Part shown: piece after piece, positions 4,939-15,548 of the stretch
Numbering within the stretch: position 1 is the first letter of the stretch
Layout of the letters: every line of letters begins with the position of its first letter
IMG/VR virus record: IMGVR_UViG_3300025141_000518
Coordinates: 1 to 29,555 of that record
Source: a virus
DNA: 29,555 nt
Direction: 5' to 3' (one strand)
Notes under the pieces: model-generated
Seen by the model: only the letters and a program-made list of their open reading frames with translations
Database searches by the model: none
What the model was told of the DNA's origin: nothing
Made by a program: the position numbers and the translations under genes

Positions 4939-6970
4939 TTAAACTCGCTATTCCGCCTTGTGCATATCTAGGAACAATTTGTGATTGCCAATTTCTATCA
5001 GCTATAATTCCTCGTTCTGTTCTCTCGTCTATTCTTGCCTGTTTTTCTTTTGCTATTCGTTCTCTTGTCTCCGCTGCCTCTTCCTGAGCTTGTAGCCACA
5101 ATTCTTTACTCCATTGATCCGGAACTTCTCCAGAAAGCAATTGTTCTACAGCATCTTCAGTTCCTCCTTGAACCCAAGGAGTATCAATTAAAAATGGATC
5201 TAAGTTTAATGTAATTTTATCCTTAATACCTTGTAAAACATTTTCTCTGGATTTTTCTCTTCTTGCTTTATCCATTCCTATTCTTCCTTGAGGATTAATT
5301 GTTTGATTTTGTAAGTTCACATATTGATCTCCCAATTCTAAAGCTTTTTCCTGTTGAACAGCTAATGAATTTTCTGGAAGTGCTGCTTCAAATTCTTCTT
5401 GTTCTGATTGACCTAATATTGGACCAAAACCATAATCAGTTGCATTCCCTAAAATTCTTTTCCAAGATTCTCCAGCTGCATAATCTCCAATTGCAAATGG
5501 AACCATAAAACCTATTTCAGCTAACACACCATAACCAGTCCACTTAGCAGCGCCCATAGCTCCTCTCATAAGTTTTGTAAATTTACCTAATTTTTGAATT
5601 GCATCTTTGCTTCCATCAGCTGCTTCTGCAACAGTTTTATTGTATCCTTTTTTATAATCAGCTACTGAAGTACATTTACCTCCTTCACCTTTTCTACATG
5701 GAATACCAGAACGAACTAAAGCTTCTCTTAAACCTTTAAATTTTGTTTCATCAAATTTTTTTAAACCTGTTTCAACAAAATCTTCTACTTCTTTAATAGA
5801 TTCAAAACCTTTTCCACCATATCGTAAACCTGTTTTATTATCTGTTAAAGTAATTCCTAATTTTTTTAATCGGTTATCCACATCTATTTTATCAAATACA
5901 CCTGAGTTAATTTCAGTTCTTATTGCTCGTGCTTTTGAATTAGCAATACGTGTTACTAATTGAAGATCTTTAGTAGGAGTATGTTTAACTCCCCTTACGT
6001 GGTGTTTTTCTAAAGCTGATCTAGTTACATCAACTCCTTTTTCATCAATTAAATAATTTAATAAATGATTTAATTGTAATCTACTATCTATAGGCACTCC
6101 ACCTTTAGTAAGAATATCTTGAATAGCTTGATTAGGAAGAGTTCTAGTTTTTTTAGTTATATCAACTAGTCTTTTAGTTTCTCCATAATCAGGATGAGAA
6201 GTTGCAACTTGTAGTCCATCATATTTATCAGCCCATTTTTTAGCTCCGTAATATTTATTTCCATCTGGGTCTATGTGACCAATAATTTTTTTGTTGCCTT
6301 TTATAGTTTCCCAAATTGGTTCATAACCAGCTCTATCCATTTGTGATAATAACCATCCATCAGCAGCGCCTAAATTATAGGCATATTTCCATTCTTCAGG
6401 ATTACCTACAAATCTTCTTATCTGTTCATATAAAGCTTTAGATTCTCCTTTTCCTCCAGCTGCAATTCCGTATTTTCCTTTTACGTAAGTTCCATCTGCA
6501 TTTTTACTAAAATCAATATCTACATCATGAAAATGTTCTTTAATTGCTATTTGAGCTTCTTCGGTAAGATCACCAAACTGTTTACTAGCTATTTTTCCTG
6601 CTTCTTGTTTAGTTACACGTTTTGCATAGTCAACACCCTCTGTTAAATATTTTTGTATAGTTTCTGATTTACCTCCAACTGCTTTCATAATTTGTTGTTG
6701 AGTTGGTAGTTTACCATCATTGTCTAATTTAAATTGTTCTACAAAGTCTTTTAATTTTTTAGTTGCTTTTCGCTTTTTAGTTTCTGCTGCTTTAGGAGCA
6801 TAAAATTTACTTCTACCAGGTCCAACGTCCTTACCATCTTCAAACCCGATCCGTCCACCTTCAGCAAGGTCCATGGTTCGTGGTTCAAGGGCCTGTCTTA
6901 AAACAGGGTTCTTGATTACCGGCTCTTGGCTCTCTTCCATTCCAAACTTAATTAATTGTTTAAGATTCAT
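4925..6970 (-). CDS. Large virion-block protein with HNH-like patch and GGRIGF/GGIA motifs (681 aa)
   Basis: The 681-aa product matches no family I can name with certainty. Visible features: DLAEGGRIGFEDG at residues 35-46; a basic linker; a segment at 295-350 with EKHHVRG (321-327) followed by TKDLQLVTRIANSKARA, which resembles the His-His and Asn/Leu pattern of HNH nucleases; a C-x7-C pair (C425, C433); a hydrophobic stretch near 475-495 (TGYGVLAEIGFMVPFAIG); a Glu/Arg-rich helical region at 605-655; and YAQGGIASLNVKK at the extreme C-terminus. It starts with TAATG overlap after the 448-aa gene, with AGGAG upstream, and lies between TerL and portal. An internal or ejected virion protein is plausible; nuclease activity is untested. 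Confidence 0.75.
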   Translation of the reverse strand: MNLKQLIKFGMEESQEPVIKNPVLRQALEPRTMDLAEGGRIGFEDGKDVGPGRSKFYAPKAAETKKRKATKKLKDFVEQFKLDNDGKLPTQQQIMKAVGGKSETIQKYLTEGVDYAKRVTKQEAGKIASKQFGDLTEEAQIAIKEHFHDVDIDFSKNADGTYVKGKYGIAAGGKGESKALYEQIRRFVGNPEEWKYAYNLGAADGWLLSQMDRAGYEPIWETIKGNKKIIGHIDPDGNKYYGAKKWADKYDGLQVATSHPDYGETKRLVDITKKTRTLPNQAIQDILTKGGVPIDSRLQLNHLLNYLIDEKGVDVTRSALEKHHVRGVKHTPTKDLQLVTRIANSKARAIRTEINSGVFDKIDVDNRLKKLGITLTDNKTGLRYGGKGFESIKEVEDFVETGLKKFDETKFKGLREALVRSGIPCRKGEGGKCTSVADYKKGYNKTVAEAADGSKDAIQKLGKFTKLMRGAMGAAKWTGYGVLAEIGFMVPFAIGDYAAGESWKRILGNATDYGFGPILGQSEQEEFEAALPENSLAVQQEKALELGDQYVNLQNQTINPQGRIGMDKARREKSRENVLQGIKDKITLNLDPFLIDTPWVQGGTEDAVEQLLSGEVPDQWSKELWLQAQEEAAETRERIAKEKQARIDERTERGIIADRNWQSQIVPRYAQGGIASLNVKK

Positions 6971-8318: not shown

Positions 8319-9797
8319 TTAATAATACACAAACTTCCTAGGCGCTTGTTTTTCATCTACATAGTCTTCAGGGTGTTTTAAAAAACCACCTTGTCTAAAG
8401 CGCATAACAGCTTGAGTCATACTATCAACTAAGTCGTCATGATCACCATGCGGGAATGCCGCACATTCCTCTATAACTTCCTCCGCAAATTTCTGGTCTG
8501 GCGCCCATATTAGACCTGATTCAAAAAGCGGAGCGCATGTATTTACTCTCACGTGTTTATCATTTCCTTTGCTCGGTGTAAAGTTCTGAACTGGTATGTC
8601 CATTTGCCGAAGTTCGTACGTTAAAGGCAGTCCTGATGCCTTTGCTTCGATGATAACTGACTCAGGATTCCAGTATTTGTACTGATCGAGAGCTAAACGC
8701 CTTAATTCAGGAAATTCATACCTCCCTTTGATGGCATCTACTAAAATAAGGTTAGCAGGTGAGTCTTCATTGGGATAAAACACTCCCCAAGTGGTAATTG
8801 CACTAAAATCGGCCGTTTCTTTTTTCATAAATGCAGTATCGTAAGATTGAATGACATAATGTAAGTTTGGAATGTAGTCTTCTTCCCATTTTCGCCACCA
8901 TTCCCGTTTTATAAGTGCTCCTTCTTCAGAAGTTGGACGTTGCATCCACTGTGCATTCCATTTTCCAACTGGTAATGTGGCTTTTACCTTTTCAAGCTCG
9001 TCTAATTTCCAATATTCTGGCCAAACGGCTTCAGGTTTAGGTCCGTGATCCAAGATCGCCGGAAATTCGACCACTTCCCATTGATCACCTTTAATTTCTT
9101 TTTGATTTTTTAACAAAATTCCAGTTAAATCCTTCTTTGACCATCTTGTCATTACTAAAATAATTTTTCCACCTGGTTGAAGACGTTGTCTTGGACCAGA
9201 TGTGTACCATTCATACGCATTTTCCATAGCTGTTGCAGACATTGCATCTTGTTCCGAGTGCGGATCATCAATAATTAGTAGATCAGCACCACGTCCTGTA
9301 ATTGCTCCACCAACACCAGCAGCAAAATACTCACCACCTTGCGCAGTTTCCCACCTTCCTGCAGCTTGAGAGTCTTCCTGTAGTCTAGTTTTAAAAATTT
9401 TATGATAATCTGGACTATCGATTAAGTTTTTTGCTTTACGACCAAAACGTATTGCAAGTTCACCTGTGTGAGTTGCTTGAATGATCTTTAATTTTGGATT
9501 ACGGCCCACCATCCAGGCAGGTAATAAGAAAGATGCAAACTCAGATTTAGTATGTCTAGGTGGCATGTTCACTATTAGACGAGTAATTTTACCCGTTGCA
9601 AGGTCATTAAACTTTTTTGCTATATGTCTATGGTGCGCACCTTCAATAAACTCGGGCCAAACACATTTGACAAAGGATAAAAAATCGTCTTTCGCTTTAT
9701 TTTGAATTTTTTTCTCAGCGTGCATTACTTGCAGTTGCCGAAAAGTTTTACGAACGTCTGAAGGAAGCTTACTTATATCTATATTATTCAAATTCAT
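8319..9797 (-). CDS. terL: Terminase large subunit (ATPase and nuclease)
   Basis: TerL powers DNA translocation into the prohead and cuts concatemers. In the 492-aa product, a Walker A variant is MPPRHTKS (78-85), Walker B is LLIIDDPHSEQDA (173-185) and the coupling motif is VMTRWS (215-220). The C-terminal RNase H-like nuclease shows D320 (SYDTA), E384 (IIEAKASG) and the D454-D455...D458 cluster (HDDLVDSM). Length and motifs are intact. No Shine-Dalgarno is evident before the ATG; the leader is AT-only for about 20 bases. It opens the packaging block and is followed two bases later by the 448-aa gene. The small terminase-like gene is 5 kb away on the other strand. Confidence 0.93.
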   Translation of the reverse strand: MNLNNIDISKLPSDVRKTFRQLQVMHAEKKIQNKAKDDFLSFVKCVWPEFIEGAHHRHIAKKFNDLATGKITRLIVNMPPRHTKSEFASFLLPAWMVGRNPKLKIIQATHTGELAIRFGRKAKNLIDSPDYHKIFKTRLQEDSQAAGRWETAQGGEYFAAGVGGAITGRGADLLIIDDPHSEQDAMSATAMENAYEWYTSGPRQRLQPGGKIILVMTRWSKKDLTGILLKNQKEIKGDQWEVVEFPAILDHGPKPEAVWPEYWKLDELEKVKATLPVGKWNAQWMQRPTSEEGALIKREWWRKWEEDYIPNLHYVIQSYDTAFMKKETADFSAITTWGVFYPNEDSPANLILVDAIKGRYEFPELRRLALDQYKYWNPESVIIEAKASGLPLTYELRQMDIPVQNFTPSKGNDKHVRVNTCAPLFESGLIWAPDQKFAEEVIEECAAFPHGDHDDLVDSMTQAVMRFRQGGFLKHPEDYVDEKQAPRKFVYY

Positions 9798-11093: not shown

Positions 11094-12068
11094 TTAATTT
11101 ACACTTTCTTGGGCTTGCATATAAGCCAATCTTTCGGCAATCTTCTCCTCTCTTGTTTTCTCTCTCTTGTTCTTCATACCCTTTATTCTATCTGCAAGAT
11201 TTTTAGGATTGTAGATAGTAAGTCCTGTTGAGTTTGTTCTGATTATTTCTGCCTCGTCAATATTTAAACCAAGTTCAGTTGCAAGTTCTAATGCCTCATC
11301 AAGATATTTATAACCTTTTAGACCGACTTTAATTTCTTTCATCTGTTCTAAAATAGAGTTAATCCATTTTTGATGTGCAATTACAAATTGACCTTTGGCT
11401 TGTTTCCATTGTATCAACATCATGTATTCTTGTTCATTACAAGCAATAGACCTATCACGACAATAATCTCTACCAATTAAATCAAGTTGATATTTTTCAT
11501 TCCACTCCTTGCCATAACCTTTGTCATCATTACCAAGATACTTGTCGTTGTTATCACAATATTTTGTTTTGTGTGGGTTGCTATCTTTGCCCTCTTGTTC
11601 AATCAAAATATCTGGGTTGCAGTTTTCTTGTGCTTTAAGTTCATCACGAAATAAAGCATAACCATAAGCACTATCTCTTGAAGATGAATAATTATTGTCA
11701 GTATCAATACTACCATTTAATCTAAAATCAAAATGGCTTTCAATAGTATCTTCTTTAGTTATTGGATTGTTGTCATAGTCTCTATCTTCTTTTGTTCCAA
11801 GATAATGAAAATGAAAACAACTGTCTTTGGCAATCGTACTTACATTTTCAAATTTATTCTGTAAGTGATATGCCATTTTAACATCTTCTGGTGTATAATG
11901 TTTTCTTACTATACTTTCAGCTAGTTTCCACGCATTGTCGTTTATGTCAATCTGGTCGGCTTTTAGATTGTCATAGTTTTGTTTTTCAATCGTATCCTCT
12001 TGTTCAAGATGTACTCGCATACGATTTGCGATTTTATTTCTGTACTCTTGATTTAGTCTTAGTCGCAT
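11094..12068 (-). CDS. Hypothetical protein starting MRLRLNQEYRNKI (324 aa)
   Basis: I choose ATG 12068-12066, which has AAAGGAG seven bases upstream; the frame extends to 12098 but that start would coincide with the predicted transcription start. The N-terminal 45 residues are a charged helix (MRLRLNQEYRNKIANRMRVH) of the type seen at the start of some phage-encoded putative nucleotide-modification-associated proteins (Nmad5-like); this is a weak resemblance only. The central part is Asp/Asn/Tyr-rich and the C-terminal third (from about residue 215) is helical and Lys/Glu-rich. It is the first gene leftward of a divergent promoter pair. The function is unknown. Confidence 0.75.
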   Translation of the reverse strand: MRLRLNQEYRNKIANRMRVHLEQEDTIEKQNYDNLKADQIDINDNAWKLAESIVRKHYTPEDVKMAYHLQNKFENVSTIAKDSCFHFHYLGTKEDRDYDNNPITKEDTIESHFDFRLNGSIDTDNNYSSSRDSAYGYALFRDELKAQENCNPDILIEQEGKDSNPHKTKYCDNNDKYLGNDDKGYGKEWNEKYQLDLIGRDYCRDRSIACNEQEYMMLIQWKQAKGQFVIAHQKWINSILEQMKEIKVGLKGYKYLDEALELATELGLNIDEAEIIRTNSTGLTIYNPKNLADRIKGMKNKREKTREEKIAERLAYMQAQESVN

Positions 12069-12104
12069 TTTATTCTCCTTTTTATTATTTGTTTGCATGA
12101 TTTG

Positions 12105-12143
12105 AAATTATCACTTGACAATAGGATAGTCAAGCATTATATT
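12105..12143. promoter_or_regulatory. Divergent promoter pair with overlapping palindrome
   Basis: Rightward: TTGACA (12115-12120), 17 bases, TATATT (12138-12143). Leftward: TTGACT (12133-12128), 17 bases, TAATTT (12110-12105), leading to the 324-aa gene. The two -35 boxes lie within an inverted repeat CTTGAC...GTCAAG (12114-12119/12129-12134) whose centre contains ATAGGATA (12121-12128). The rightward promoter is near-consensus and fires into the GC-richer non-coding stretch. The same ATAGGATAGT decamer recurs in the divergent promoter at 14.88 kb, suggesting a shared regulator; both assignments are sequence matches only. Confidence 0.6.
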
Positions 12144-12200
12144 TGATTTATGACTATTAACCCTCTGACAGAATCTCGAATTCATCAAAGGTCTAGTCAT

Positions 12201-12665
12201 GAGATCAGGGGTGTTGAATATCCTAGTTGCAAATAGGGTATTGTAAGAACTCACGATATGGGAATTAACCTCCACGCGTGAACTGATCCCTGATCCTCTG
12301 GCGAGGCGTTATTGAAAAATAATTAGCCACCACTCTAGAGCAGGGGATCTGGGATCAGGTTGAAATAATATTGGCCTCTGCCCTGAAGACCGGGCGGGCC
12401 TGATCCCTGATCCATTGTGCATTGGCAGATAGCTATGGAACTGCCTAATCGTAGTAATGTCGCAATGGATCTGGGATCAGGTGTTGTAGCTGTGGGAATT
12501 GACCCACTATAGTTCAGGTCGCGATCCATATCTGGATGGTCCGGTATTTCTGCAGAGAGAAAGACCCGCCTGCACAGGACAACAACTGATCCCTGGTCTA
12601 AGTCAGAGGAGATTGATCATCTTGTAATGGGACGTGGCGTCCGCTGTACTTGGACCTGGGATCAG
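12201..12665. repeat. Array of alternating inverted GATC heptamer dyads
   Basis: Seven related sites alternate in orientation: GATCAGGGG (12203), CTGATCCCTGATCC (12283-12296), GGATCTGGGATCAGG (12345-12359), CTGATCCCTGATCC (12400-12413), GGATCTGGGATCAGG (12467-12481), CTGATCCCTGGTC (12586-12598) and CCTGGGATCAG (12655-12665). Most sites are themselves two 7-bp units. Adjacent sites can pair in more than one register, so the region could switch between alternative hairpins. The spacing between sites is 40-105 bases and the intervening sequences differ. Confidence 0.75.
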
Positions 12666-12704
12666 TAACAGAATCCCGGCCATCACTAGTGGGCAGTTAC
12701 TGGT

Positions 12705-12727
12705 CACTTTAGAATGATTCTAAAGTG
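12705..12727. repeat. Perfect inverted repeat at end of the non-coding stretch
   Basis: CACTTTAGAAT (12705-12715) and ATTCTAAAGTG (12717-12727) flank a single G, giving an approximately 10-bp stem with a 3-base loop. On the plus strand it is followed by an A-rich tract (CAAAAAGAAAAAG), not a U-run, so it is not a classical terminator for rightward transcripts. It separates the GATC region from the first AAGCNNC array and may stabilise an RNA 3' end. Confidence 0.5.
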
Positions 12728-12741
12728 CAAAAAGAAAAAGA

Positions 12742-12776
12742 AAGCAACAAGCTTCAAGCGTCAAGCAACAAGCTTG
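12742..12776 (+). repeat. AAGCNNC heptamer array R1 (5 units)
   Basis: Five consecutive 7-bp units: AAGCAAC, AAGCTTC, AAGCGTC, AAGCAAC, AAGCTTG. The first four bases are fixed while positions 5-6 vary. The final unit runs into GACA so that its TTG provides the first half of the TTGACA -35 box at 12774-12779. Related arrays lie at 13383-13440, 14117-14151 and 14194-14269. Confidence 0.85.
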
Positions 12777-12802
12777 ACAGTGACTGTAGGATTTGATAGG
12801 AT
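12774..12802 (+). promoter_or_regulatory. Putative promoter TTGACA-N17-TAGGAT
   Basis: TTGACA (12774-12779), a 17-base spacer and TAGGAT (12797-12802) precede the 32-aa gene at 12822 by about 20 bases. An AAAGGA ribosome-binding site (12811-12816) lies between. The -35 box is created by the last unit of the AAGCNNC array. It probably drives the short plus-strand operon 12822-13470. Confidence 0.5.
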
Positions 12803-12821
12803 TTATTTAGAAAGGAATAAT

Positions 12822-12920
12822 ATGGACACAACACAATTAAAAAGAATAGCAGATGCGCTGGAAGAGATCTTGCGTCTTGTTAAACAAGATATGGAAAAGT
12901 ATGAAAAAAAGAAACACTAA
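12822..12920 (+). CDS. Small helical protein (32 aa)
   Basis: The frame MDTTQLKRIADALEEILRLV... starts at ATG 12822 after AAAGGA; the in-frame extension upstream runs through the repeat array and is unlikely to be translated. The whole product is a single predicted amphipathic helix with regularly spaced Ile, Leu and Val and a Lys-rich end. It overlaps the next gene by 20 bases. At 32 residues it is short, but the promoter, ribosome-binding site and coupled downstream gene support it. The function is unknown; a helix of this kind could be a small regulator or an oligomerising peptide. Confidence 0.5.
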   Translation: MDTTQLKRIADALEEILRLVKQDMEKYEKKKH

Positions 12921-13065
12921 AAAAACAATAACAGGCTGGTCGCTTCAGGTTACATGGAGCGATGGCAGGGAGGAAACCATCACAGATATAGATAATGAAA
13001 CGGTCAGAGCTGTTGATACATGCTTAAGTGAGCTAGAACAGGAAAGAGATGCTAACAAAAAATAA
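12901..13065 (+). CDS. Small hypothetical protein with WSDGREET motif (54 aa)
   Basis: I start at ATG 12901 (MKKRNTKKTITGWSL), inside the end of the 32-aa gene; the open frame extends upstream but without a plausible ribosome-binding site. After a basic N-terminus, TGWSLQVTWSDGREETITDI reads as a beta-hairpin, followed by an acidic helix (VRAVDTCLSELEQERD). The alternating hydrophobic pattern and tight overlap with both neighbours (17 bases with the next gene) make it likely to be real. No family is recognised. Confidence 0.55.
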   Translation: MKKRNTKKTITGWSLQVTWSDGREETITDIDNETVRAVDTCLSELEQERDANKK

Positions 13066-13288
13066 AATAAAACAAATAAACAAAGATGGATGGTACTGGG
13101 CCGAAGGCCCAGTGGTCATGTGTAATTATGGAGATCCAAATACATTCACCTTCTGCATGTGCAGGAACCACGCTGAGGCCAAGGCTGTTGCTTCAGGGCT
13201 CAATGTCCTGGACTGGAATGAGATGCACGAAGAACATGGTGAAATGGTAGAATCAGATACAGAATTTGTCAGAGAAAAGTCACTGTGA
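13049..13288 (+). CDS. Hypothetical protein (79 aa)
   Basis: The product MLTKNKIKQINKDGWYWAEG... has a basic start, then WYWAEGPVVMCNYGD, a Cys pair near CMCRNH (residues 36-41), and an acidic C-terminus. AEAKAVASGLNVLDWNEMHEEHG looks like a small alpha/beta domain. Within the gene, 13095-13113 encodes a perfect 8-bp stem (ACTGGGCC/GGCCCAGT, loop GAA), unusual for a coding stretch in this AT-rich genome. It overlaps the 54-aa gene and ends within the GTG start of the following frame. The function is unknown. Confidence 0.6.
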   Translation: MLTKNKIKQINKDGWYWAEGPVVMCNYGDPNTFTFCMCRNHAEAKAVASGLNVLDWNEMHEEHGEMVESDTEFVREKSL

Positions 13289-13470
13289 AAAGAATTAAAC
13301 ACAATAACCTGTTGCCATGGTTTGCTCAGGATCATGGCACGCTTCCGGCCAGTTACCTGGCCAGCTGTGAAAAGTTTTTTAAAAGCCTGAAGCCACAAGC
13401 TTCAAGCGCCAAGCTTGACAAGCTACAAGCCTCAAGCTATAGTAGGATTATAAAGGAGAATAAAAAATGA
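13285..13470 (+). CDS. Possible small protein ending in the AAGCNNC repeat (61 aa)
   Basis: The frame opens with GTG at 13285, overlapping the previous stop by four bases. The first half (MKRIKHNNLLPWFAQDHG) has some protein-like character, but residues about 33-53 (SLKPQASSAKLDKLQASSYS) are a direct translation of heptamer array R2, and the frame then runs through the downstream promoter. A 6-bp hairpin (GGCCAG/CTGGCC, 13347-13362) is also inside it. Either a short gene has had its 3' end replaced by repeats, or only the N-terminal part is meaningful, or it is not translated. Treat it as doubtful. Confidence 0.3.
   Translation: MKRIKHNNLLPWFAQDHGTLPASYLASCEKFFKSLKPQASSAKLDKLQASSYSRIIKENKK
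13383..13440 (+). repeat. AAGCNNC heptamer array R2 (8 units)
   Basis: Units: AAGCCTG, AAGCCAC, AAGCTTC, AAGCGCC, AAGCTTG, then a 2-base insert (AC), then AAGCTAC, AAGCCTC, AAGCTAT. As in R1, the AAGCTTG unit followed by ACA creates TTGACA (13415-13420). Here the three later units form the promoter spacer and the last one supplies part of the -10 (TATAGT, 13438-13443). Confidence 0.85.
13415..13443 (+). promoter_or_regulatory. Promoter for the Gp88-family gene, built from repeats
   Basis: TTGACA (13415-13420), 17 bases, TATAGT (13438-13443), then AAGGAG (13453-13458) and ATG at 13467. Both boxes are close to the sigma-70 consensus. The whole promoter is composed of AAGCNNC units, so the repeat array doubles as regulatory sequence. 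TAGGAT-like sequence follows at 13443-13448. Confidence 0.65.
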
Positions 13471-14066
13471 ATACAAAAGAAGCATGGAAACTGGTTGGCG
13501 GGCTGTCGAAGCCTGGCAAGATGCCCGGATGGTCAATTGGTATACCTGCAAAAGAATGCAAGACAGGCGTCAAGCTGCAGAAGGTCCCCGGATCTGTCTG
13601 TTATGACTGTTACGCCATGAAAGGCTGTTATGTCTTCAAGGTAGTACAAGACGCTCAATACAGGAGACTTAAAGCAATATACACAGCTCCATGGGTCAAG
13701 GCTATGGTTCACCTGATCAACAGCAAGAAGCCGGACGTGTTCAGGTGGCACGACTCAGGAGATGTACAGGATCTTGAACATTTAAATAAAATATACGACG
13801 TCTGCAGGTTAACACCGGGCAAGCGTCACTGGATGCCAACGCGTGAAGCGTGGATCAAGGACCATCTCGATAGGGCACCTGCTAACCTGGTGATCAGGTT
13901 CTCTGCTCCGATGGTGGACCACGAAGCACCTGCCAGCTGGCCAAACACCAGCACCGTGGTGACAGCTCAGGCTACGTGCCCGGCGCCTCATCAAGGCAAT
14001 CAATGCAAAGATTGTAGAAATTGCTGGAATAAAGAAATAAAGAATATATCATACGGCCAGCACTAA
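13467..14066 (+). CDS. Gp88-family (GP88 domain) phage protein
   Basis: The 199-aa product matches the pattern of the phage Gp88 family, whose biochemical role is unknown. Visible hallmarks: an N-terminal LVGGLSKPGKMPGWSIGIPA; a first Cys cluster VCYDCYAMKGCY (C45, C48, C54); RWHDSGDVQ (93-101), WMPTREAWI, and VIRFSAPMV; and a second cluster CPAPHQGNQCKDCRNCW (C171, C180, C183, C186). The two Cys groups could bind a metal or cluster. The start has a good AAGGAG and an upstream repeat-derived promoter. It is the last gene of the plus-strand island, followed by a GC hairpin. Length is typical of the family and nothing seems missing. Confidence 0.8.
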   Translation: MNTKEAWKLVGGLSKPGKMPGWSIGIPAKECKTGVKLQKVPGSVCYDCYAMKGCYVFKVVQDAQYRRLKAIYTAPWVKAMVHLINSKKPDVFRWHDSGDVQDLEHLNKIYDVCRLTPGKRHWMPTREAWIKDHLDRAPANLVIRFSAPMVDHEAPASWPNTSTVVTAQATCPAPHQGNQCKDCRNCWNKEIKNISYGQH

Positions 14067-14093
14067 TGACATTTCATCACCCAAAATATTATG

Positions 14094-14108
14094 CTGCCCT
14101 CCGGGCAG
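14094..14108 (+). terminator. GC hairpin downstream of the Gp88-family gene
   Basis: CTGCCC (14094-14099) and GGGCAG (14103-14108) flank TCC, 28 bases after the stop codon. It lacks a U-run (AGCGAAAG follows), so it may only be a weak or factor-assisted terminator or an mRNA end-stabilising stem. It lies directly before array R3 and in the convergent gap with the leftward nuclease gene. Confidence 0.4.
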
Positions 14109-14116
14109 AGCGAAAG

Positions 14117-14269
14117 AAGCTTCAAGCTGCAAGCCTCAAGCGTCAAGCATCACCAAGCCAGAATGAGAAGCGATCATCAACACCAAGTTTAGAAAGCTCC
14201 AAGCCACAAGCTTCAAGCTCCAAGCAACAAGCATCAAGCTGAGGCCTCAAGCCACAAGCCACAAGCTCA
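14117..14269 (+). repeat. AAGCNNC heptamer arrays R3a and R3b
   Basis: R3a (14117-14151) has five exact units: AAGCTTC, AAGCTGC, AAGCCTC, AAGCGTC, AAGCATC, with an offset sixth at 14155. R3b has seven units from 14194 to 14242, a 6-base interruption and three more to 14269. R3b and the end of R3a lie inside the nuclease frame on the minus strand. Immediately after R3b is CTTGATCC-AG-GGATCAAG (14276-14293), which links this array with the GATC repeat family. Confidence 0.85.
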
Positions 14270-14565
14270 TCGATCCTTGATCCAGGGATCAAGAAGTATT
14301 GAACAAGTTTCGAGGACCTTTGACCAAGGGCCTCGACTAAGATAAATGTATTCTTAGGATGTGTCTTATGGAAGGCAATTTGATGGGGGGAAATTTTGAT
14401 TTTATTCCCCTTAGTGCACTTTAATTCTACTGTGAAAAAGGTGCCAGAATTATTATAGCCCAATAGATCAGGAGTGCCGAGAGAGCTAAGGTTTTCAATC
14501 CTAATCCAGGAAATATCTTTAGAAACTTTACGAAGTTTTTTATATAATTTAGCTTCTGGACCCAT
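14143..14565 (-). CDS. VRR-NUC/PD-(D/E)XK endonuclease-like protein with repeat-derived tail
   Basis: The first about 85 residues match a VRR-NUC-type nuclease core: an N-terminal helix with E4, then GTPDLLGY (D33), VELKC (E47, K49) and ISPHQIAFH (Q62), giving the PD-x13-ExK catalytic pattern. These enzymes cleave or resolve branched DNA in phage and repair contexts. The last about 45 residues (from about LIPGSRIDELVACGLRP) are encoded by the GATC and AAGCNNC repeats and read as a Leu/Ala/Cys-rich repeat, so the natural C-terminus has probably been replaced or extended. It lies nearly 30 bases after an 82-aa gene in a leftward pair driven from the 14.88-kb promoter. Confidence 0.7.
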   Translation of the reverse strand: MGPEAKLYKKLRKVSKDISWIRIENLSSLGTPDLLGYNNSGTFFTVELKCTKGNKIKISPHQIAFHKTHPKNTFILVEALGQRSSKLVQYFLIPGSRIDELVACGLRPQLDACCLELEACGLELSKLGVDDRFSFWLGDA

Positions 14566-14593
14566 ACAGTTTTCGGGGGAATATCGTCATTCA

Positions 14594-14842
14594 TTAAACG
14601 TCGTAATGAGTAGATCTTAGCTTGTCAGGTATAAGTAATTTTTTCTCGTTTTGAGGTCTTAAAACTAACCGTAGTGAAGGTTGCCCTATAATCATATGCT
14701 CCTGCACTTCCATTCTTTTAATTTCTTCTAGGTGGCCATCAATAGCTACATAAATTTTAGCATGAGAAATAGCATTACCTTGATACTTAGTTTGTCCCAT
14801 TGTGAACTTACCTAAGAATTCTTGTAGATGTTTTACAAACAT
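14594..14842 (-). CDS. Hypothetical protein (82 aa)
   Basis: The 82-aa product starts after a strong AGGAG (ATCAAGGAGAATTAAAATG on the minus strand). It has a helical N-terminus (MFVKHLQEFLGKFTMG), a central beta-type stretch (HAKIYVAIDGHLEEIKRM) and a basic end. It is the first gene behind the leftward half of the divergent promoter at 14.88 kb and is followed by the VRR-NUC gene, suggesting the two are co-expressed. I recognise no family; similar small proteins are plausible in marine phages. An accessory role with the nuclease is conjecture from position. Confidence 0.7.
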   Translation of the reverse strand: MFVKHLQEFLGKFTMGQTKYQGNAISHAKIYVAIDGHLEEIKRMEVQEHMIIGQPSLRLVLRPQNEKKLLIPDKLRSTHYDV

Positions 14843-14871
14843 TTTAATTCTCCTTGATGGTCTTTCATATA

Positions 14872-14905
14872 TTGACTTTATAGGATAGTTCCCTTAAATT
14901 GTCAA
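14872..14905. promoter_or_regulatory. Second divergent promoter pair with ATAGGATAGT motif
   Basis: Leftward: TTGACA (14905-14900), 17 bases, TATAAA (14882-14877), for the 82-aa and VRR-NUC genes. Rightward: TTGACT (14872-14877), 17 bases, TAAATT (14895-14900), for the small terminase. ATAGGATAGT (14880-14889) lies between, identical to 12121-12130 in the other divergent pair. The rightward -10 ends exactly six bases before ATG 14907, so the transcript would be leaderless. Confidence 0.6.
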
Positions 14906-14906
14906 T

Positions 14907-15548
14907 ATGGGAGTTCCAAAAAGATTAACAGAAATGCAACAAAGATTCGCTGAGTTTTTAGTATTCGGTGGACCTGAGGGACCAATGTCTAAACGTGAAG
15001 CTGCTGTCGCAGCAGGTTATTCACCTGACCGTGCAATGCGGGAAGGATCAGAACTAACCAACCCAAGATATTCACCATTAGTAGTAAAATATATTGGTGA
15101 GTTAAAAGAAGAAAGACTTAGAAAACATGAAGTCACATACGAAGGACATGTTGCAGAACTCGCTAGGTTGAGAGAAGCCGCTTTAAAGAAAGGAAGTTTT
15201 TCCAGCGCTGTAAATGCTGAAGCCAGTAGGGGAAAAGCAGCAGGATTGTATATAGATAGAAAAATAATAAAAACAGGTAAATTAGATGATATGACAGAAG
15301 AACAACTAGAAGCAAAAATGAAACAAATTTTAGACGACTACGCACCTCTTTTAAATGCAAAGACTGTTGAAGGTGAGGCAATCGAGACAACTACTCTTCC
15401 TGTAAACTCAAAAGAATCAACATCAATACAAGACAAAGAATCATCTAAATCTTCTGAATCTTCCTTACCCATTGACGAGGTATCATCGTCCGATCCCCAA
15501 AAGAAAAAGTCCCATCATCTTCCCGATCAAAAGAAGCAAAAAGTTTAA
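14907..15548 (+). CDS. terS: Small terminase subunit-like protein
   Basis: The N-terminal 90 residues have the pattern of small terminase proteins, which recognise packaging sites: RLTEMQQRFAEFLVFGGPEG, a helix-turn-helix-like stretch SKREAAVAAGYSPDRAMREGSE, then LTNPRYSPLVVKYIGEL. A charged helical region (about 75-150) follows, for oligomerisation. From about residue 160 the tail is Ser/Glu/Lys-rich and probably disordered. The last 104 bases overlap the 96-aa gene on the other strand. It is transcribed opposite to and 5 kb from terL, which is unusual but known in phages. The ATG has no ribosome-binding site and lies six bases from a -10-like box. An unrelated HTH protein remains possible. 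Confidence 0.7.
   Translation: MGVPKRLTEMQQRFAEFLVFGGPEGPMSKREAAVAAGYSPDRAMREGSELTNPRYSPLVVKYIGELKEERLRKHEVTYEGHVAELARLREAALKKGSFSSAVNAEASRGKAAGLYIDRKIIKTGKLDDMTEEQLEAKMKQILDDYAPLLNAKTVEGEAIETTTLPVNSKESTSIQDKESSKSSESSLPIDEVSSSDPQKKKSHHLPDQKKQKV

Follow-up and report, generated by a model that had tools for sequence, protein, structure and literature searches.

Directional AAGCNNC heptad arrays around the GP88 gene of HTVC027P-type pelagiphages as candidate joints of an exchangeable gene cassette

Heptad arrays and gene map of the locus

Between its two terminase genes, the viral IMG/VR record IMGVR_UViG_3300025141_000518 (29,555 bases; this whole stretch is called the window) carries four tandem arrays of a degenerate heptanucleotide, AAGCNNC, placed around a gene of the GP88 family. 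AAGC at exact 7-nucleotide (nt) spacing forms six perfect runs, 28 units in four clusters from 12742 to 14269, all on the plus strand; the runs start at 12742 (5 units), 13383 (5), 13420 (3), 14117 (5), 14194 (7) and 14249 (3). Array 1 (12742..12776) has 5 units, the last of which enters the -35 element of the next promoter (AAGCTTGACA, 12774-12802). Array 2 (13383..13440) is made of runs of 5 and 3 and encloses the GP88 promoter, array 3 (14117..14151) has 5 units, and array 4 (14194..14269) is made of runs of 7 and 3, with the C-terminus of a convergent gene encoded on its antisense strand. On the opposite strand, GCTT at spacing 7 occurred a single time, as a chance pair at 6765.

Adjacent pairs at spacing 7 numbered 22, against a mean of 0.15 and a maximum of 2 in 1000 dinucleotide shuffles of the region, and a mean of 0.29 and a maximum of 3 in 200 shuffles of the whole window; the longest AAGC run had 7 units against at most 3 in shuffles. 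A pattern search of the window record returned 15 forward, 0 reverse and 0 reversed-control matches. The four heptad arrays described in an initial annotation made from the sequence alone therefore lie far above shuffle level, and its remark on occasional slips suits the irregular spacings of 9, 10 and 13 inside the clusters.

The locus is anchored on the left by the large terminase subunit gene (TerL, 8319..9797, minus strand) and on the right by the small terminase subunit gene (TerS, 14907..15548, plus strand). PolA, a helicase, an exonuclease (phrog_298 match; PDDEXK_1 just below cut-off) and others are encoded on the minus strand alongside TerL. GP88 (PF17338, Pfam E 1.8e-24) occupies 13467..14066 on the plus strand. 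Its start is overlapped by the stop of a small plus-strand open reading frame (ORF), 'KRIKH' (13285..13470, 61 amino acids, GTG start), which takes its C-terminal tail from array 2 and had no Pfam family in the search. Farther upstream on the same strand lie small cassette ORFs at 12822-12920, 12853-13065 and 13049-13288 (span 12822..13288), for which no family was found. GP88 is followed by the plus-strand ORF 'HPKYY' (14066..14242, 58 amino acids), with a conserved HPKYY head and a tail (K-x-Q-A-x-S-x) read from arrays 3 and 4. The convergent minus-strand ORF 'NUC' (14143..14565, 140 amino acids) draws its C-terminus, (L-x-L-x-A-C-x)n, from the antisense of the arrays; its resemblance to Holliday junction resolvases comes from a Pfam match to Hjc that fell short of the cut-off (E 0.011).

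The closest cultured match was Pelagibacter phage HTVC027P (MN698241), with 51.7% identity in GP88 and a shared gene order; its own GP88 gene, in a locus at about 16.2-18.3 kb, is flanked by arrays of 3, 5 and 13 units. Judged by synteny and proteins, which place it with HTVC027P and not with filamentous cyanobacteria, the window comes from a relative of that pelagiphage, whose host HTCC1062 belongs to SAR11, the most abundant bacteria of the ocean. HTVC023P-type phages, HTVC027P included, are described as widespread SAR11 viruses in passages of PMC9599517 and PMC11066056. The placing of the arrays in a marine-phage accessory island, to the left and right of its plus-strand genes, was borne out.

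Distribution among phages

A five-core array pattern matched 120 or more stretches of viral contigs in IMG/VR. In a whole-record search 20 of 20 records matched, on one strand per record and with 0 matches in the reversed control; among the matches listed in that search, the arrays lie within about 2.5 kb. When records were fetched by NUC or TerS, using neither array nor GP88, arrays were present in 118/118 and GP88 in 117/118 of those that extend 450 nt or more from NUC towards GP88, a set that includes the window and some contigs found in both fetches. Where a contig ran on for 1500 nt or more past GP88, NUC was present in 141/142 and TerS in 140/142 cases. At least three units were found within 400 nt before GP88 at 133 of 137 loci (range 0-11) and within 400 nt after it at 135 of 145 (range 0-20), counted over array- and GP88-fetched loci that were partly selected on arrays. 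Relative to GP88, three-unit matches were sense in 1699 cases and antisense in 0, and unit spacing over loci was 7 in 2330 cases and 8 in 13. Throughout the lineage the arrays thus keep to fixed places on either side of GP88, in the TerL-TerS interval, and run in its sense direction without exception. They are neither invariant, confined to one genome nor at the frequency of shuffled sequence, the outcomes that the initial annotation had named as fatal, and the copy-number variation at fixed positions among relatives that it had looked for exists (0-20 units after GP88, 0-11 before).

No heptad run was found in the 14 of 14 loci (L328-L341) of the 023Pt_psg01 relatives, whose GP88 is at least 93% identical; these loci have RAGC-rich stretches at the corresponding places, with spacings mainly of 4 and 8. 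The exact octad pattern was found in 0 of 3 phages (HTVC027P, 023Pt_psg01 and HTVC033P), so the statement on spacing 8 rests on RAGC spacing counts. In the same clade (L208, 6640-6790; L328, L333, L336) the RAGC stretches at 4/8 are joined by a GGGAGGGTGGGCCC-like element, as if one array type had been replaced whole by another.

The sister phage HTVC023P has TerS, NUC and TerL, and no arrays, hairpins or GP88 match were found in it; no RAGC arrays were found in DSL-LC04. Over the fetched stretches, RAGC runs at spacing 4, 7 or 8 were likewise absent from HTVC033P, and from GP88 relatives outside the group, namely Caulobacter phage Seuss, Roseobacter phages CRP-125, CRP-4 and CRP-603, Acinetobacter phage Mithridates and two Manatee Spring phages.

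Unit variation and slippage

Among 2476 units in 614 distinct viral runs, position 7 was C in 2436 (98.4%) and the two-base spacer (NN) was nearly free, in keeping with the earlier description of a fixed AAGC with variable positions 5 and 6. NN was identical between adjacent viral units in 106/1862 cases (5.7%; 7.9% expected under independence), against 558/686 (81%) between neighbours in bacterial-genome arrays matching the same pattern. No three-unit NN string recurred within downstream arrays in 103 representative loci. The upstream and downstream arrays of one genome were no more alike than arrays of different genomes, and conversion between arrays within a genome was rejected (up-down sharing ratio 1.07 for two units, 0/1371 for three units). 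NN identity was in excess at lag 3 (21 nt; 14.5%), which fits the codon phase of the 'HPKYY' ORF.

Expansion by slippage, as initially suggested, did not hold up against the low adjacent identity and the lack of three-unit recurrence; slippage is refuted as a recent process, although it may have been the ancient origin of the arrays. The AAGCNNC repeats of Pseudomonas, Halomonas and other bacteria share the pattern but, unlike the phage arrays, are made mostly of identical units, lie at scattered loci and look microsatellite-like. Many Pseudomonas, Halomonas and Alcanivorax genomes (L210-L289) carry such repeats, for the most part homogeneous; mixed NN was seen at a few bacterial loci (L252, L255, L256, L280, L284 and L288), and some bacterial repeats occur as opposed arrays. 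Short repeats with variable units are not safely read as slippage products.

Translation of the arrays and constraint on the core

Read directly, AAGCNNC is free of stops in every sense frame, and all three frames yield one heptapeptide class. The ORF 'HPKYY' runs in frame into the array at 82 of 146 loci, and NN composition varies with the codon phase of that ORF (chi-square 104; none of 2000 cluster shifts reached this value, their maximum being 46). On the other strand, the NUC stop lies inside or beyond the array at 80 of the 83 loci having both. The NUC C-terminus is conserved, with the consensus L-x-A-C-G-L-x-L-x-A-C-C-L-G-L, and in its antisense TGN codon the T that would make TGA occurred in 0/135 units. 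It exists in two unrelated forms, one array-encoded, (L-x-L-x-A-C-x)n, and one heptad-free in psg-type loci (GLLSDHRETP..DWDHIQRLL; L208, L328, L394). A small AGAACC-loop-GGTTCT hairpin was also noted between arrays 3 and 4 at 25 of 145 loci (e.g. L012, L151), where it is read as KPEPSSGS in the 'HPKYY' tail.

Codon usage separated core from spacer. NUC encodes Ala as GCT in 10% of cases in its body, against 85% in tails without overlapping 'HPKYY' (33/77 tails). In 'HPKYY', Lys is AAA in 78% and AAG in 22% of body codons, against AAG in 81% where the tail does not overlap NUC. Cys (TGT/TGC) and Glu (GAA/GAG) have their third base in NN and stay mixed. Because both tails use core-dictated synonymous codons that are disfavoured in the bodies, there is a nucleotide-level reason for the core. 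Core substitutions by codon position 1, 2 and 3 numbered 10, 9 and 6. In 34 anchored pair comparisons NN divergence was below or like that of four-fold sites; in the 21 of 34 with GP88 divergence of 0.15-0.20 it was 0.28, with 0.42 at GP88 four-fold sites and 0.08 in the 30-nt flanks, the divergences being biased downward by the selection of pairs with the same number of units and resembling flanks. The core is thus conserved beyond the need of either encoded protein, while NN drifts roughly like a weakly constrained site.

Linkage and breakpoints

A first distance test over all loci was biased, the loci having been chosen on GP88 similarity, and an array-fetched set was used instead; 34 of its 120 loci were kept, with all genes at 75% coverage or more and distinct sequences. 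Spearman correlations of pairwise protein distances in these loci were 0.15 for GP88-NUC and 0.70 for NUC-TerS, an order held in 300/300 subsamples; TerS and the next gene gave 0.72 (30 loci), and the left gene and GP88 gave -0.04 (26 loci). Replicates fetched by NUC (n=47; 0.20 vs 0.60) and by TerS (n=46; 0.16 vs 0.51) agreed, and GP88-NUC was 0.08 with n=76. Control correlations between gene halves were 0.63 for GP88, 0.62 for NUC and 0.81 for TerS. GP88 is therefore unlinked in descent from genes across the arrays, while genes without intervening arrays are linked.

Individual pairs located the change. Between L012 and L166 identity was 0.58 in GP88, 0.67 before the array, 0.72 in the array, 0.96 after it and 0.94 in NUC. 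Pairs similar in GP88 (0.91) fell to 0.76 just after GP88, 0.62 in the array and 0.48 just after it, with 0.75 in NUC (11/13 pairs; the NUC baseline was 0.72 in 29 random pairs). The alignments of L449/L458, L421/L425 and L435/L438 become identical within the last array units. In the replicate-set pair list some pairs carry no GP88 value, and 19/140 pairs fall in none of the three identity classes; the mean over that list, which mixes these pairs, carries no weight here. The change of parentage in recombinant pairs falls after the GP88 stop and no later than the array end. The early suggestion of an insertion target came near this result, which is exchange of an array-bounded GP88 cassette between phages.

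Promoters, hairpins and the GP88 product

The plus-strand locus starts with a promoter-like site, TTGACA-17-TATATT (12114..12143), which contains the inverted repeat CTTGAC-N9-GTCAAG and has a similar sequence in HTVC027P; its promoter match suggests that it may act as a promoter. The GP88 promoter, TTGACA-17-TATAGT (13415-13443), lies within array 2. Array-promoter overlap of the AAGCTTGACA kind, at 12774 and 13415, concerns arrays 1 and 2 only. Upstream promoters were detected at 44 of 147 loci, and in 21 of these 44 the last AAGC stood exactly 4 nt before the -35 element (AAGCTTGACA).

Upstream of array 1, three plus-strand hairpins (12283..12358, 12399..12481 and 12585..12666) belong to a TGATCCCTG..CTGGGATCA family of the form TGATCCCTG-RTCC...GGAYC-YTGGGATCA, with 123 distinct copies at 92 of 160 loci (e.g. 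L017, L030, L207). Covariation in the family was strong (pair 14 was paired in 123/123 copies, 59 expected), and the pairs included 88 G-T against 4 A-C, so that the hairpins are probably structured plus-strand RNA. An Rfam search of 11900-15000 gave two matches, the better at E 0.22 and far below gathering. At many loci (e.g. L017, L059, L207) a GGATCAGG..CCTGGTCC inverted repeat precedes array 3; it is like the upstream hairpins with the arms reversed and falls inside the 'HPKYY' ORF where that ORF is present.

GP88, a Pfam family of unknown function, is predicted to be radical-SAM-like (SAM, S-adenosylmethionine). An AlphaFold2 model built from 54 sequences had a pLDDT (predicted local distance difference test) of 93, and in fold comparison the top 19 of 50 rows were radical SAM enzymes at Z 6.4 to 5.3, below the level that stands out alone; the best were spore photoproduct lyase (Z 6.4), a viperin-like protein (6.0), EpeE (5.7) and BtrN (5.6). 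Foldseek with the same model gave nothing significant (best E 0.057). Seven cysteines are invariant (C31, C45, C48, C171, C180, C183 and C186) and would suit two metal centres. The canonical radical SAM cluster motif is CX3CX2C; this classical form is absent, and C31, C45 and C48 are spaced as CX13CX2C. In HTVC027P, gp33 (GP88) and gp34 formed an early-middle expression cluster of their own at 6-9 h, according to the part of PMC12753301 that covers expression.

Interpretation

The arrays look like functional joints, not ordinary stuttering repeats. They are best read, at a confidence somewhat short of even, as recognition or homeology arrays that form the joints of an early-gene cassette open to exchange. 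The cassette would comprise a small gene, GP88 and 'HPKYY', between the terminase genes of HTVC027P-type pelagiphages, and the arrays would be cis-acting, a (C)AAGC core with a free two-base spacer kept as nucleotides at the cassette borders, where they would promote or permit exchange. Since any two arrays match at 5 of 7 positions, in shared orientation and at shared gene borders, they could offer a tolerable homeology tract for annealing-type phage recombination; alternatively, a factor recognising the core could let the cassette swap without damage to neighbouring genes. A unit without stops in any frame would make array growth into gene tails harmless.

Several points weigh against this reading. 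Array positions coincide with a natural border between modules, a place where recombination occurs even in the absence of special sequence, and this coincidence does not establish a cause; that the arrays bring about exchange is an inference. Selection for the core purely for exchangeability would be indirect. The Pfam and PHROG scans that were run recognised no annealing protein, only the exonuclease. The link across array 2 is unbroken, GP88-close pairs sharing the upstream small-gene type in 276/299 cases. The pairs L454/L457, L454/L508, L457/L517 and L456/L517 are close in NUC but dissimilar in the 45 nt after the array. Because psg01 relatives have RAGC at 4/8, the exact 7-nt period is not essential to the locus.

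Regulation is a serious contender, nearly as likely as joints because arrays 1 and 2 enter -35 elements (AAGCTTGACA), though it too is held tentatively and falls well below an even chance. A phage or host protein would bind the CAAGC repeats cooperatively, on DNA or sense RNA, and regulate the GP88 unit, with recombination as a by-product. Arrays abut or contain sigma-70-like promoters (window 12774 and 13415; 21/44 at 4 nt), the core is kept at the nucleotide level with a free spacer and a fixed phase (7 in 2330, 8 in 13), and the neighbouring hairpins are RNA-like on the plus strand (88 G-T vs 4 A-C). The separate early-middle cluster of gp33 (GP88) and gp34 in HTVC027P (expression part of PMC12753301) fits, and the heptad parS/operator arrays of pSM19035 are a known analogue (as outlined in PMC9499535). 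Yet the longest arrays follow GP88, between convergent genes and away from the promoter, and core spacing differs in the psg01 clade. No partner came to light: ribbon-helix-helix PF01402 was over cut-off in 0 of 6 records, with one sub-threshold match in 023Pt_psg01. Array RNA showed no unusual openness, folding at -0.207 kcal/mol per nt where fully shuffled sequence gave -0.119. A Rho utilisation site was considered and set aside, psg01-type arrays being GAGC-rich and the array RNA not open. TRAP-like RNA repeats offer no more than an analogy.

The joint reading has a stronger form, which we consider doubtful: a dedicated cassette-exchange system of lytic pelagiphages, in which directional CAAGC-N2 arrays, with tandem RNA hairpins beside them, would mark both ends of an early-gene cassette built around a radical-SAM-like enzyme and be read by a putative factor, so that one of the commonest phage groups of the ocean could reshuffle host-takeover genes. 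On this view the arrays have extended into the tails of two convergent genes.

A purpose at the protein level, namely the encoding of disordered tails rich in K/Q/A/S and in Leu/Cys, is improbable and already weakened. NN composition does follow the 'HPKYY' codon phase, the antisense TGN is never TGA (0/135) and the NUC C-terminus is conserved as protein. But synonymous core positions are fixed and those in NN variable, core substitutions show no excess at the third codon position (10, 9, 6), 'HPKYY' is in frame at only 82 of 146 loci, and an HPKYY-like ORF is present in HTVC033P, where no arrays were found. The NUC tail can also be exchanged for another, since the C-terminus of psg-type NUC is unrelated; this too counts against a protein-level purpose.

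A packaging (pac/cos) site for the neighbouring small terminase would suit the place between TerL and TerS and the uniform orientation, but is very unlikely: the 47 contig ends upstream and 36 downstream were spread out without a peak near the arrays, HTVC023P has NUC, TerS and TerL but no arrays, and linkage to TerS holds for nearby NUC but not for the gene beyond the array. An ordinary microsatellite grown by slippage, like the bacterial repeats with the matching pattern, would explain why unit number differs between relatives but is the least credible, given 5.7% against 81% adjacent NN identity, no repeated three-unit strings in the downstream arrays of 103 loci, and a core conserved while NN drifts.

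Comparison with known systems and significance

The repeats of the pSM19035 parS/operator (Omega protein), 7-10 consecutive 7-bp units, overlap promoters of several plasmid genes, as PMC9499535 outlines. The phage arrays share this promoter overlap in arrays 1 and 2 only and fail the WATCACW motif: the plasmid heptads have a WATCACW core in mixed orientations, the phage arrays CAAGC-N2 in one orientation, and, unlike the plasmid heptads, they also lie downstream of genes and inside coding sequence.

Filamentous cyanobacteria carry short tandemly repeated repetitive (STRR) sequences, whose cores differ from AAGCNNC; they too are tandem 7-bp units, as noted in PMC2670836. The phage arrays differ in having a SAR11 host, a spacer diverse within the array and a tie to one phage locus, and cyanobacterial STRR was rejected since the phage is HTVC027P-type and adjacent units are not near-identical (5.7%). 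The distinction from STRR drawn in the initial annotation is upheld by this spacer diversity and by the SAR11 phage synteny.

In mosaic phages, boundary or linker sequences are conserved at the borders of exchanged modules; the present arrays are a degenerate short-period array and not one conserved sequence. Rickettsia palindromic elements are repeats that invade gene ends and remain translated, whereas the phage arrays are tandem directional heptads, with the palindromic hairpin family separate. Literature searches outside subscription papers and supplements found no description of these arrays, and 'tandem repeat', 'direct repeat' and 'intergenic' are absent from the main text of PMC9599517.

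HTVC027P and HTCC1062 are cultured and transcriptome data exist, so that a partner factor, transcript ends and crossovers are directly searchable. If the joint reading is true, the arrays, constrained as nucleotides and translated on both strands at the site of exchange, would give modular phage evolution a concrete mechanism open to test.

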